A program made the position numbers and the translations under genes. The notes beneath the pieces are model-generated. The model ran no database searches. It was not told the origin of the DNA and saw nothing but the letters and a program-made list of their open reading frames with translations. From a virus, in the IMG/VR virus record IMGVR_UViG_3300034279_000464, positions 1 through 28,759 of that record: a stretch of 28,759 nucleotides of DNA; one strand, 5' to 3'. Shown piece after piece: positions 21,257 through 26,546 of this stretch; the first letter of the stretch is position 1, and each line of letters begins with the position of its first letter.

Positions 21257-22045
21257 TTATTTGAGCGCTGAGGTCGGTGTAACCGCCATCTCGATACTGG
21301 AAGTACCGCGACTTTTATTTAGCCCATCAGCGCATGTTTCTTTTCTACTTTGCAAAGATACTTTTTTTCCCTTATACATTCCTGCTCCCATTTCATCTAT
21401 TTTGCTAAATGGTAAAATAGGAACTGTTATTTTGCAAGTTTTGTCAATTAGATAAATGTATTTTAATTGTTTACCTACTAAAGGTTTTCCTTTTAAAACC
21501 TCAACCATATATTTTTTAGCATTACCATAACCACTCTCTAACATTTTTTTCCTTAACGCTCCGTGCTGTCCACCTTGCAAACCCATTAAATGTAAAGTAT
21601 CTCCGTTAGGTAATTCATATAATTGTTTACTATCGTTTATGTTTGTCAAAACAAAACCACTTGCCCTATAAATTGTACCATCTCCGCATTGAGTAGCATC
21701 GGCAAAACTCATAACCCATTTTACTTGTGGTGCATTCTTTTTAATTAATAATAGACATACTTTTATAAAACGACTTTCAGTATATTTTGGTGTGTCATCA
21801 ATACAAACTAATCTGTTTAATTCTAAAAAATCATTCCACTTTGTGTTTTCAATTAAATGCAAATGAAGATACTTGTTTATAGGTCTTCCCCATTGTGCAA
21901 CCCCTATAATTTTATTATCTAAAAAAGCTCCAAAACAAATTAATCCAGTAGCCGCAACTTTACCACTATAATGATGCTTTTTAACAAACTCATTTGCAAT
22001 CTTTGATGGTATTACCTTAACGATTATTTCCTTTGCTCTGCCCAT
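21257..22045 (-). CDS. Mom-like DNA adenine modification protein
   Basis: A 262-residue protein of the Mom family (GNAT-like fold), named for the phage Mu enzyme that adds a carbamoylmethyl group to adenine and protects DNA from restriction. Conserved blocks are the HHYSGK region near residues 24-29, FGAFLDNKIIGVAQWGRP near 38-55, ELNRLVCIDDTPKYTESRF near 75-93 and SFADATQCGDGTIYRASGF near 113-131. The C-terminal tail is low in complexity and polar, as in other phage members. It overlaps the ParB-like gene and lies directly before the small terminase, so modification would occur close to packaging. No Com-like translational activator is seen. The family call is good; the modified base and sequence preference cannot be read from sequence. 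Confidence 0.85.
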   Translation of the reverse strand: MGRAKEIIVKVIPSKIANEFVKKHHYSGKVAATGLICFGAFLDNKIIGVAQWGRPINKYLHLHLIENTKWNDFLELNRLVCIDDTPKYTESRFIKVCLLLIKKNAPQVKWVMSFADATQCGDGTIYRASGFVLTNINDSKQLYELPNGDTLHLMGLQGGQHGALRKKMLESGYGNAKKYMVEVLKGKPLVGKQLKYIYLIDKTCKITVPILPFSKIDEMGAGMYKGKKVSLQSRKETCADGLNKSRGTSSIEMAVTPTSALK

Positions 22046-22629
22046 TGCATAATGATTAAATAAAGCGCGTTACCGTTACTGTTTTCATTTCCCATTGTTT
22101 CGGCATACTTATACTCATCAGTCCCCTTTATATCATCAATAGCATTTTTTATTATCGTTGCCTGTTCATCTGCTAAAGTAAAAGTCATTTGTTGAAATGG
22201 TGCTTTATCTCCATCTGGCAAACTAAACTCAGTGCCTAACTCATTAGCATTTACATCAAACCCTGGTTCCACCTCACCCCAATCTGCCAACTCTTCTTTT
22301 TGCCATTCCGAAAGTTCTGCCCAATTCCAATCGGCAACATCGGCATTGTCGTATAGGATAAACTTTTCTTTTTGTTCAGCAGTCCAATCATCTGCAAGTA
22401 TAACAGGTGCTTCCTTTGCTCCGATTTCTTTAAGTGCTTTCAATCTTTGATTACCGCCCAATACAACAAGTTTGCCATCGGTATCGGTATAACACACCAA
22501 TGCTCTTTTCTCTAACATTTCGGGGAAATCACGTACTGACTCAACAAGTTTCTTGAACGAGTCATCCCTAATAACACGCGGGTTCTTTGGGTTCGGTTTT
22601 ATTTTAGATATGGCTACTTTCACGTTCAC
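22024..22629 (-). CDS. ParB/Sulfiredoxin-fold protein, phage type
   Basis: A 201-residue protein with a ParB N-terminal-like domain: IKPNPKNPR near residues 10-18, FKKLVESVRDFPEMLEKRA near 25-43, and the core motif LGGNQRLKAL at 57-66. Phage members of this family typically lack the chromosomal ParB DNA-binding and dimerisation domains, as here, and are often annotated as ParB-like nucleases. The C-terminal part includes WNWAELSEWQKEELADWGE, a frequent segment in these proteins. The listed start is a GTG overlapping the -7 element; the second GTG at 22623 is a plausible true start if the message is leaderless. Its end overlaps the Mom-like gene by 22 bases. ParB-like genes beside Mom-like genes are a recurrent pairing in phages. 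Exact activity is unknown. Confidence 0.8.
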   Translation of the reverse strand: MNVKVAISKIKPNPKNPRVIRDDSFKKLVESVRDFPEMLEKRALVCYTDTDGKLVVLGGNQRLKALKEIGAKEAPVILADDWTAEQKEKFILYDNADVADWNWAELSEWQKEELADWGEVEPGFDVNANELGTEFSLPDGDKAPFQQMTFTLADEQATIIKNAIDDIKGTDEYKYAETMGNENSNGNALYLIIMQWAEQRK

Positions 22630-23782: not shown

Positions 23783-26164
23783 TTAAAAATAATCTTCGTT
23801 AGCATCTTTCCACATTTGTTTTTCATTGAATACTTCAAAATATCTACCTATGCCGGGATGGTTGCCCTCTTTATACTCATGGCCATAAAATCTGCAGTAC
23901 TCTTCCAACCATTGTTTGAATTTCTTTTGGCTTAACCACTTCTTTAAATCTGGATATTCCTCTAATAATTCATTGTACTTTTCACGCTTTGCAAGTCTTT
24001 GATTAAAGCCAAACGCTTCATGCGTTTTTGTCCATTCGTAAAACTCAAAGGAAGTATTTTTAATAAATTTACGTGTTTCAATATTGTCAAAATCGGCCTT
24101 TACCAATCCATTATTCAAGTAGTATTGCGCACATTGTATCATGTAATTATCAAACCTGCTCCATTCTTCATCGTTCCATTCATCAAAAAGTAGCTTTCCA
24201 AACTTCATCAATGGTGTGTTTTGCGAATTAAAGTAACTGCTCAATTCAATTTCAAATTTCCTGCGCTCAAATGAGCCACCGACACCGCCAACGGTATAGT
24301 TAGTAGTAATTATTATTTTCGGGCTTTTCTGCACAGGAAGTTTAATCGCATCTTGCCCTTTGTACTCAATGGTTATTCCCTCGGTAATCAATGAAAATAA
24401 ACGCTCAAAATCAAAGTTCTTTTTAACATCATCGAAAACTAATAGTTGACAGTCGGTGCTTACCGTTTGATAGGGGAATGACTTGTTAAAATCAAATGTT
24501 TTGCCATCTATACTGCTCACTTTCTTTAAGTGTGATAGCGCATTACAAAACAAACCTTTACCGCTTCCACCGTTGGGATTTTCACTAATCACACTATCAT
24601 TCAGTATTACGGCCTTGTTGTTTGCCGATGTCTTAAAGGAGTGCATAAGATAACCGATAACTGATTTGAATGTATTATACTTTTGCCTATCTTCCCCGGA
24701 TATGTACCAAACAAAACTTCTGTATTCACTTTTGTGATGGTCAGTTAATTTAAAATCACGGTCAATAATTTGATTTTTCCAAACGTAACCATCAACATCC
24801 AAGTAATCAATTGTTTCAAATGTATCTTTGGTTATCCTTACAATGCAGTTTCGATAATAGATAAAAATCTCATCCTGTGTATCTTCTTTGATTTTGATGT
24901 CGGCACTGTCAAGCAAAGAAAGAAAATCAACACTAAACGCTTTTGTTGATGATGCCATTGAGTCATAAGGCATGTACCCTATATCTTTTCGCTCAATTAG
25001 GCATTTTAACACAAAATCTTTGATGCGCTTTTCGTTTGTTTCTTCTACCTTGTTTTGGTCAATTTGTATAAAAGTAAATGTTTTGCTTTCCGTTGGAAAG
25101 AATTTAGAAAAGTTGTTGTTTTCCAACCAAAACTTATACTTATGTGGGCTTAACTTAAATTTGCCCTTTTCATCAAAAGTCCAATAATCTTCAATGTCTA
25201 TTGTTTCACGGATGTATTCGGATGCCGACTCAATGATGTTTGGTGCAACATCTGGGAACATTTTTATAATTTCTTTTGCTGCCTTACCTTGCCTTACTTG
25301 CTTTTCAACTTTAAACTTAATTGCATTGTCTTCAAAAAAACGTGTTCCATGGGCTTCAACTCTTTTGTATGCCGACTTGCACAATGTTTCAATTTCAGAT
25401 AAGGTAAAATCCTTTTCTTGAAACTCCGATAAAACATTCATTGCTTCGCTTTTGCTGATGCCAAAAGAGTTTAAAGCCATGGCCAACTTAAACAAGTTTT
25501 CGTTACGGCTTCCTTTGCTCATTCCGTATTTCTTGCGCCACCATGTAAGCAAGTTTTGAATGATACGGTTATCCGATTGAATTGCAAACAAAGGTGTTTG
25601 CGTTCCGATGTCGGAGTATTCTGGTTCCTCAACCTCGGCAAAAATTAATGCTGATTGATTGATGTAAATGTTTGGGTCGTAGCTTTCATAACATAACCTG
25701 CTTATATTGCTGCTTGAAACATCAAAGTATTCGGAATTAAAGTAATTTTTAAGAGCATCAAAATAACCCTTGTAGTTAGCAGCACCATCAACAGGTATTT
25801 TCACTATCAATTTAAAGCCATTGCCCCTTGGTGATATAAACATTGCAAACACATACTCATTGTCTTTTAATGACTCCATAAAGGCATCCATTTCGGATTT
25901 ATCCTTAAACTTATCAAAGTCGAGGGGCATCAATCCACTAAACTGCTTTATGCCTTTATCGTTTCGTTCCTTGAATATGCCTTGAAAGTTTATTGCAGGC
26001 AGTTGTTTTTTTAGTTCCTGCTGCTTTTGCTCATCATTTTCGGCACGTATCTGTTCAACTAATACTTTTGATTTACCGTTCTTTATGCGGTCAAATACAT
26101 AGTTTACATCACGGTGAAAACCGTTAGTAATCTCTTTTAGGTTCTTATAAATTGTAACTGTCAT
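23783..26164 (-). CDS. Primase-helicase (VirE_N/BT4734-like primase plus SF3-type helicase)
   Basis: A 793-residue replication protein. Residues about 1-180 match the VirE_N/BT4734 primase-like domain of Bacteroidota: LPAINFQGIFKERND, the acidic LDFD motif at 81-84, SPRGNGFKLIVKIP and SSNISRLCYESYDP. Residues about 200-280 form a PriCT-like helical module (SRNENLFKLAMALNSFG). The C-terminal helicase core has Walker A GGSGKG (about 532-537), Walker B LLVFDD (574-579), a sensor IIITTN (617-622) and an arginine-finger-like FERRKFE. It should prime and unwind DNA at the phage fork. I chose the ATG at 26164 because the homologous domain begins there; an in-frame ATG 16 codons earlier would add residues that overlap the leader hairpin. 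The candidate origin lies just upstream. Confidence 0.85.
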   Translation of the reverse strand: MTVTIYKNLKEITNGFHRDVNYVFDRIKNGKSKVLVEQIRAENDEQKQQELKKQLPAINFQGIFKERNDKGIKQFSGLMPLDFDKFKDKSEMDAFMESLKDNEYVFAMFISPRGNGFKLIVKIPVDGAANYKGYFDALKNYFNSEYFDVSSSNISRLCYESYDPNIYINQSALIFAEVEEPEYSDIGTQTPLFAIQSDNRIIQNLLTWWRKKYGMSKGSRNENLFKLAMALNSFGISKSEAMNVLSEFQEKDFTLSEIETLCKSAYKRVEAHGTRFFEDNAIKFKVEKQVRQGKAAKEIIKMFPDVAPNIIESASEYIRETIDIEDYWTFDEKGKFKLSPHKYKFWLENNNFSKFFPTESKTFTFIQIDQNKVEETNEKRIKDFVLKCLIERKDIGYMPYDSMASSTKAFSVDFLSLLDSADIKIKEDTQDEIFIYYRNCIVRITKDTFETIDYLDVDGYVWKNQIIDRDFKLTDHHKSEYRSFVWYISGEDRQKYNTFKSVIGYLMHSFKTSANNKAVILNDSVISENPNGGSGKGLFCNALSHLKKVSSIDGKTFDFNKSFPYQTVSTDCQLLVFDDVKKNFDFERLFSLITEGITIEYKGQDAIKLPVQKSPKIIITTNYTVGGVGGSFERRKFEIELSSYFNSQNTPLMKFGKLLFDEWNDEEWSRFDNYMIQCAQYYLNNGLVKADFDNIETRKFIKNTSFEFYEWTKTHEAFGFNQRLAKREKYNELLEEYPDLKKWLSQKKFKQWLEEYCRFYGHEYKEGNHPGIGRYFEVFNEKQMWKDANEDYF

Positions 26165-26176
26165 AATATAATAAAG

Positions 26177-26218
26177 AAGCCCGATGCTACTGGGATGCAG
26201 CCAATAACACACGGGCTT
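26177..26218 (-). promoter_or_regulatory. Leader hairpin just before the primase start
   Basis: A 7-bp stem, AAGCCCG paired with CGGGCTT, encloses a 28-nt loop. On the minus strand it is followed by CTTTATTATATT and then the primase ATG about 12 nt later. It uses the same stem sequence as the core of the terminator at 26501-26536. It may be an attenuator in the primase leader, or a terminator for plus-strand transcripts. An in-frame upstream ATG at 26212 would place a translating ribosome across it. Confidence 0.5.
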
Positions 26219-26280
26219 TGTTTGGCAATCAGGCCAATATTATGAATAAGAATCTGCATCATTCTTTAAATTTTCTTGGG

Positions 26281-26288
26281 CAAATATA
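26281..26288 (-). promoter_or_regulatory. Candidate Bacteroidota -7 element for the primase operon
   Basis: On the minus strand this reads TATATTTG, an exact TAnnTTTG element. Eighteen bases upstream is a T-run rather than the usual TTTG, so the -33 match is partial. Transcription would begin near 26275, giving a leader of roughly 110 nt that contains the hairpin at 26177-26218. There is no competing gene here. The rest of the gap (26219-26500), apart from the octamer array, shows only A/T-rich sequence. Confidence 0.5.
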
Positions 26289-26375
26289 AATTATTATTTT
26301 GAATGAAAAAAATATAACACTTTTAACACGTAAAAAAATTTTAGAACATCATTCTTTACTTACTGCTGATTGAGT

Positions 26376-26490
26376 TTATACACTTATACAGGTTGAAAAC
26401 CATTTTTTATAAAAAATATTTCAAAAAGTAAAAAAACGCTCAAATTAAATATGTATATAAATATGGGGGTCAATGTGTATAACTGTATAA
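26376..26490. other. Candidate replication origin with DnaA-box-like iterons
   Basis: The segment contains four copies of the octamer TTATACA[C/G]. Two are in tandem on the plus strand (TTATACAC at 26376-26383 and TTATACAG at 26384-26391). Two are in tandem on the minus strand (26475-26482 and 26483-26490). The minus copy at 26474-26482 reads TTATACACA, an exact match to the DnaA-box consensus TTATNCACA. The roughly 80 bases between the two pairs are extremely A/T rich, with T and A runs typical of an unwinding element. The segment lies in the only large gene-free gap of the window, between a terminator and the primase-helicase gene. The pattern is directly seen; origin function is inference. 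Confidence 0.6.
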
Positions 26491-26500
26491 GATTAGACAT

Positions 26501-26536
26501 AATAAAGCCCGCAGCGTTTTATGTTACTGCGGGCTT
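26501..26536 (-). terminator. Intrinsic terminator of the early operon
   Basis: A perfect 10-bp GC-rich stem, AAGCCCGCAG paired with CTGCGGGCTT, with a 12-nt loop. On the minus strand it is followed by TTTATT. It starts about 11 nt after the Gp157 stop and so ends the early operon. Because the stem is flanked by A/T on both sides it could also stop transcription on the plus strand. Confidence 0.85.
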
Positions 26537-26546
26537 GTGTTATTCC

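Follow-up and report, generated by a model that had tools for sequence, protein, structure and literature searches.

The DNA analysed here (the window, 28,759 bases) is a virus contig whose likely phage genes all lie on the minus strand. It encodes a large terminase subunit and a long run of other phage-type open reading frames (ORFs), together with a DNA-metabolism block composed of an SSB-like DUF3127 protein, an AAA_24 protein, a Gp157 protein and a primase-helicase of 793 amino acids. A blastn comparison with known phages returned zero matches and the protein matches were distant only. The source is a Bacteroidota phage: the named relatives of its primase-helicase belong to phages of Flavobacterium, Cellulophaga, Polaribacter, Maribacter and Bacteroides, and further relatives are found in genome bins mostly of Bacteroidota, including a Pedobacter sp. 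contig. Between the Gp157 and the primase-helicase genes runs a gap of 382 bp (26165-26546), the largest gene-free gap in the window; as an earlier note on this DNA had proposed, it has a hairpin at both sides and holds an array of short boxes upstream (5') of the primase-helicase gene. The hairpin on the Gp157 side probably ends transcription and insulates the array, but the ATG-proximal one belongs to a separate leader RNA, which the earlier note had missed. The main features are as follows.

23783 to 26164, minus strand: primase-helicase gene, proposed initiator (793 aa; BT4734-like_N, PriCT_1 and SF3-type DUF5906 helicase)
26376 to 26396, plus strand: outer arm A, tandem boxes TTATACAC TTATACAG, then GTTGA
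26392 to 26474, no strand: A/T-rich core between the box pairs, candidate unwinding element (83 bp, ~81% A/T)
26470 to 26490, minus strand: outer arm B, inverted, tandem boxes TTATACAG TTATACAC, then ATTGA; contains TTATACACA at 26474-26482
26505 to 26536, minus strand: hairpin that follows the upstream Gp157 gene and probably ends transcription

When all 28,759 bases are scanned, the octamer TTATACAS matches at 26376 and 26384 (plus strand) and at 26475 and 26483 (minus strand) only. The four matches form two tandem 8-bp pairs, inverted to each other and 83 bp apart, all within 26376-26490; the coordinates and the arrangement had been described correctly beforehand, and the motif search then suggested gives zero further octamers outside the gap in the whole window. 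Some 2.4 copies of TTATACAS are expected by chance in the window against the four observed. The copy number is ordinary and it is the clustering that is unusual, the odds of four random positions falling within 115 bp being roughly 4 x (115/28759)^3, or ~3e-7, by our own post hoc arithmetic. No further copy of the tandem pair was found anywhere in the record with up to two mismatches. Both arms extend into a 32-nt inverted repeat that is 78% complementary and in which a shared RTTGA adjoins either box pair. Scored simply as an inverted repeat, the array reaches 13.8, close to the values of four further places in the window (12.6-14.2); judged in this way, in one sequence, it is not exceptional. 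Its strength comes from the clustering of the octamers and from the comparison with relatives, not from the inverted-repeat score. Cumulative GC skew, which had also been put forward as a check, presents no switch at the array in either the raw sequence or third codon positions, and is uninformative here because all genes run on one strand.

Four scans for relatives of the primase-helicase yielded many contigs, which were reduced to 95 distinct loci. The earlier note had looked to conservation of the array, and this holds for the layout but not for the letters. The exact octamers are shared by near-identical contigs only, with partial TTATACA boxes in one recombinant locus (L006), but the same layout is found upstream of the primase-helicase gene in more than 12 lineages, with an outer span of 97-118 bp, and it reaches distant lineages, down to roughly 40% protein identity. 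It comprises tandem boxes at a spacing of 8-9 bp, in many cases with ATTGA behind them, then an A/T-rich core and inverted boxes, and in most relatives it is located ~200-340 bp 5' of the primase-helicase start codon. In 15 lineages the core is of similar length, with an A/T content of 67-89% and two tandem boxes per side. The box sequences vary by lineage (GTACACA, GGGCACA, GCAACAC, TTCACACA, CGTGACAA and others), as the following arms illustrate, each read from outer to inner.

Window, left and right arms: TTATACAGTTATACAC / TTATACACTTATACAG
L014, left and right arms: TTTCCACATTCACACA / TTTCCACATTAACACA
L018, left and right arms: AGTACACAAGTACACT / AGTACACAAGTACACA
L151, both arms: TAGGGCACAAGGGCAC
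L240 (distant), left and right arms: CGTGACGACGTGACAA / CGTGACAACGTGACAA

The match between left and right arms averages 0.84 within a genome as opposed to 0.46 between genomes in 15 lineages picked for showing an array, a result reached by 0 of 20,000 permutations. In a shuffle test of the inverted pair, at most one shuffle in 60 was as good in 16 of 17 loci, and the locus that failed (L006) has degenerate arms. A recognisable upstream array is absent from some relatives (the L070, L156 and L165 groups), and a 32.9-kb relative has its tandem box pair nowhere but in its own array. A conserved layout with changing but matched letters thus points to sites read by a co-evolving protein.

The identity of this protein had been left between host DnaA and a phage protein, with one box singled out as a perfect DnaA-box consensus. 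The match is real, since TTATACACA (26474-26482, minus strand) corresponds exactly to the consensus TTATNCACA and belongs to one of the four boxes. Nevertheless, three other exact TTATNCACA matches occur in the window, all inside genes, and one-mismatch matches are not enriched across it, so that the match carries no weight. Sites read by host DnaA are expected to stay DnaA-like. The boxes of relatives with ~84-85% identical primase-helicases do not match TTATNCACA, and close relatives with the same layout bear GCAACACA, TTCACACA, GTACACA, GGGCACA or CGTGACAA boxes. Among the 15 lineages compared, the match is present in the window type only. A DnaA-dependent origin should display a cluster of TTATNCACA boxes kept in relatives, and what is found is one exact box that is not kept. 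On the sequence comparison, divergent but matched boxes argue strongly against host DnaA, which was rejected as the reader, and an origin opened by DnaA at TTATNCACA boxes appears highly improbable; the part of the earlier proposal that finds support is the phage protein.

The most likely candidate for such a reader is the C-terminal winged helix of the primase-helicase, which lies in one of the most variable stretches of the protein.

23810 to 24049, minus strand: C-terminal winged-helix domain, proposed to bind the boxes (codons ~706-785; AlphaFold pLDDT 86, pTM 0.77)

Since the helicase core of the full-length model has a pLDDT below 50, the fold argument draws solely on a model of the C-terminal domain made by itself. 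The predicted winged helix aligns with the P4 origin-binding domain 1ka8 (Z 5.8, rmsd 2.6 over 71 residues), and this match is compatible rather than diagnostic, because the fold is common and a Z of 5.8 is not specific; the model aligns with many winged-helix proteins, one fold match being the Orc1-DNA structure 2v1u. A Pfam search of the domain gave no significant family, and a sequence search of solved structures gave no useful match.

A further indication is provided by the way in which the boxes track the C-terminus of the primase-helicase. The L006 locus is a natural recombinant in which primase residues 100-500 are L014-like (95-96%) and residues 500-793 are identical to those of the window. 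Its boxes are of the TTATACA type, as in the window, as opposed to the TTTCCACA type of L014. Boxes and C-terminus thus appear to stay together in L006, although linkage may contribute, because L006 is also identical to the window in its first ~50 residues and in the flank. When box difference is related to difference along the protein with the rest of the protein controlled, the winged helix yields the highest partial correlations of 20 protein windows (r of 0.31 and 0.28; 13 of 2000 permutations as high), with others close behind (0.27 for residues 81-120 and 0.25 for 441-480); the partial correlation is modest. One clade includes two box types, GTACACA and GGGCACA. Its winged helices share 85-89% identity when the boxes are of one type but 51% when they differ, a steeper drop than in any other region of the primase-helicase (72-97% identity between box types). 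A second clade with the same two box types shows no special winged-helix drop. Overall, there is moderate support for the winged helix as the domain that co-varies most with the boxes. A shared residue code for GGGCACA against GTACACA was considered and discarded: although eleven columns tell the two types apart in each clade, the residues are not the same.

A further set of features occupies the stretch between the array and the primase-helicase start codon.

26281 to 26288, minus strand: TATATTTG, a Bacteroidota -7 element (TAnnTTTG), 88 bp from the array
26177 to 26266, minus strand: leader RNA with two strong hairpins, immediately behind the -7 element in the stretch from array to start codon
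26248 to 26266, minus strand: leader hairpin 1, with loop GATGCAG at 26254-26260
26177 to 26218, minus strand: leader hairpin 3, ATG-proximal, with loop CTGCATC at 26194-26200

Scans for sigma-70 promoters and terminators gave nothing above shuffles, and a -7 element is present in this zone in 58 of 91 loci as compared with 39 of 740 control stretches; the primase transcript would presumably start by TATATTTG. The position of the array upstream of this element, in a regulatory gap, is what lends some credit to the main rival explanation, by which the array is an operator where a repressor, an activator or an autoregulating primase-helicase controls the primase promoter, possibly through looping of the arms; a distance of about one hundred bp between inverted tandem boxes would be well suited to this. 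At 88 bp from the -7 element, however, the array does not overlap the core promoter, and the upstream neighbours (the Gp157, AAA_24 and SSB-like genes) include no obvious regulator. Furthermore, several relatives (among them L006, L009 and L029) have an extra ORF, equipped with a promoter-like element of its own, that parts the array from the primase leader by ~450-550 bp, so that the array is not tied to the primase promoter. We thus regard an operator as unlikely. The products of the extra ORF in L006, L009 and L029, of roughly 110-130 codons, look mutually related.

Paired inverted repeats are also typical of centromere-like (parS), packaging and recombination sites, and a ParB_N-like protein is encoded nearby (22024-22629). 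This gene is directly followed by a Mom-family DNA modification gene, both lying within 21257-22629 on the minus strand, and its PHROG matches include a DNA methyltransferase. The pair may hence constitute a DNA-modification module rather than a partition system, a DNA-modification role being as likely for the ParB-like protein. In addition, the array is ~5 kb away from the terminase gene, and its boxes track the primase-helicase. A site for some other protein of this sort is accordingly quite improbable.

In our view the array is probably a replication origin with a PICI/SaPI-like layout, whose reader would be the primase-helicase through a C-terminal winged helix like that of P4 alpha. Computation gives the array, a layout that stays conserved while its matched arms diverge, the predicted winged helix and a partial co-variation of this domain with the boxes. 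The classic layout of an origin beside its initiator gene, which the earlier note had invoked, is well supported as an origin-type iteron array by the comparison with relatives; origin activity itself is our inference. In the mechanism that we propose, the phage primase-helicase would bind the four boxes through its winged helix, two per side and in opposite orientation, and this arrangement could place two opposed SF3 helicase rings on either side of the A/T-rich core. The core would then melt, the same protein would unwind the DNA and subsequently prime it, and a host or phage polymerase would take over after priming.

Several known systems share part of this design. Archaeal origins have inverted origin recognition boxes flanking an A/T-rich unwinding element, and they resemble the phage locus in the inverted sites around such a core, but their initiator is the AAA+ protein Orc1/Cdc6, whereas the candidate here is a helicase-primase. 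Phage P4 uses a second site, crr, as opposed to the window, where no second array was seen. The window is probably incomplete, and another origin might lie elsewhere. In PICI/SaPI origins (Rep or Pri-Rep) two iteron sets flank an A/T-rich region beside the gene for the initiator, which is a helicase, in some cases with a primase fused to it, and whose C-terminal domain recognises the origin in SaPIs (PMC6092414, PMC7581432). The phage locus likewise displays two box sets around an A/T-rich core beside a helicase-primase gene. Its C-terminal domain may recognise the boxes, their co-variation being an indirect sign. It differs from those systems in its two inverted boxes per side and its Bacteroidota hosts, in that the array lies 5' of the primase-helicase gene and not immediately 3' of the initiator gene (rep) as in PICIs, and in that the window belongs to a phage rather than a satellite, with a terminase and structural-type genes of its own. 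P4 alpha unites a TOPRIM-type primase and a helicase in one protein, and its winged helix binds origin repeats (PMC4234260). The phage protein also combines primase and helicase, with a predicted C-terminal winged helix that aligns with 1ka8, but in place of a TOPRIM domain it has BT4734-like_N and PriCT_1, and its primase fold hits include the primase-polymerases AsfvPrimPol, RepB' and NrS-1 PrimPol. The phage system would thus work as a mixture of the PICI/SaPI and P4 types, but by the features tested it belongs to neither. Within the open-licence literature, no paper describing this array was found.

The leader RNA is an adjacent feature, separate from the origin proper. The 7-nt loops of its hairpins 1 and 3, GATGCAG and CTGCATC, are perfectly complementary, and the loop pair co-varies across lineages (GATACAG/CTGTATC, AGTGGTAG/CTACCACT, GTGGTGG/CCACCAC, CTGGAAG/CTTCCAG, GAGGGG/CCCCTC, CTCTTCAC/GTGAAGAG and more). 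At most two shuffles in 100 gave equally good complementarity in each of 16 leaders picked for showing a complementary loop pair; leaders of this kind are found in the window and in L008, L017, L020, L026, L030, L031, L039, L052, L069, L082, L159, L181, L190 and L236. No Rfam family matched this RNA. A short ORF (26162-26260, minus strand) starts in the loop of hairpin 1 and ends overlapping the primase start codon (ATGA); a protein-coding function for the leader was rejected, since this ORF belongs to the window clade and is not kept in more distant relatives. In I-complex plasmids a loop-loop pseudoknot and an antisense RNA control the synthesis of the initiator, rep (PMC10724649 and works cited there). 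By analogy, the phage leader resembles these pseudoknots in the complementary loops of two hairpins within an initiator leader, and it differs in belonging to phages of Bacteroidota and in having no conserved leader peptide; it is not known to have an antisense RNA.

It is conceivable, if doubtful, that iteron origin and kissing-loop leader RNA form together a plasmid-like replicon module, with two adjacent, fast-diversifying and self-matching specificity elements whose diversification would be akin to that of incompatibility groups. In such a module the winged helix would read the origin and the leader RNA would control initiator synthesis, and co-infecting relatives would be kept from using or silencing each other's replication. 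More generally, the locus provides a concrete candidate for the origin and initiator of a widespread and essentially unstudied family of Bacteroidota phages. The layout with two iteron sets has been described as unique to phage satellites (PMC6092414), and the present array would extend it to full phages, on the opposite side of the gene. The matched variants of boxes and winged helix may likewise offer a natural series for how initiators change their DNA specificity.

The number of boxes also differs among these phages. Additional direct repeats of GGTACACATT, spaced ~11 bp apart, follow downstream of the inverted pair in L031, L046, L077 and similar loci; they are ~147-220 bp away from the primase gene on its upstream side, and some lineages thus have more than four boxes.
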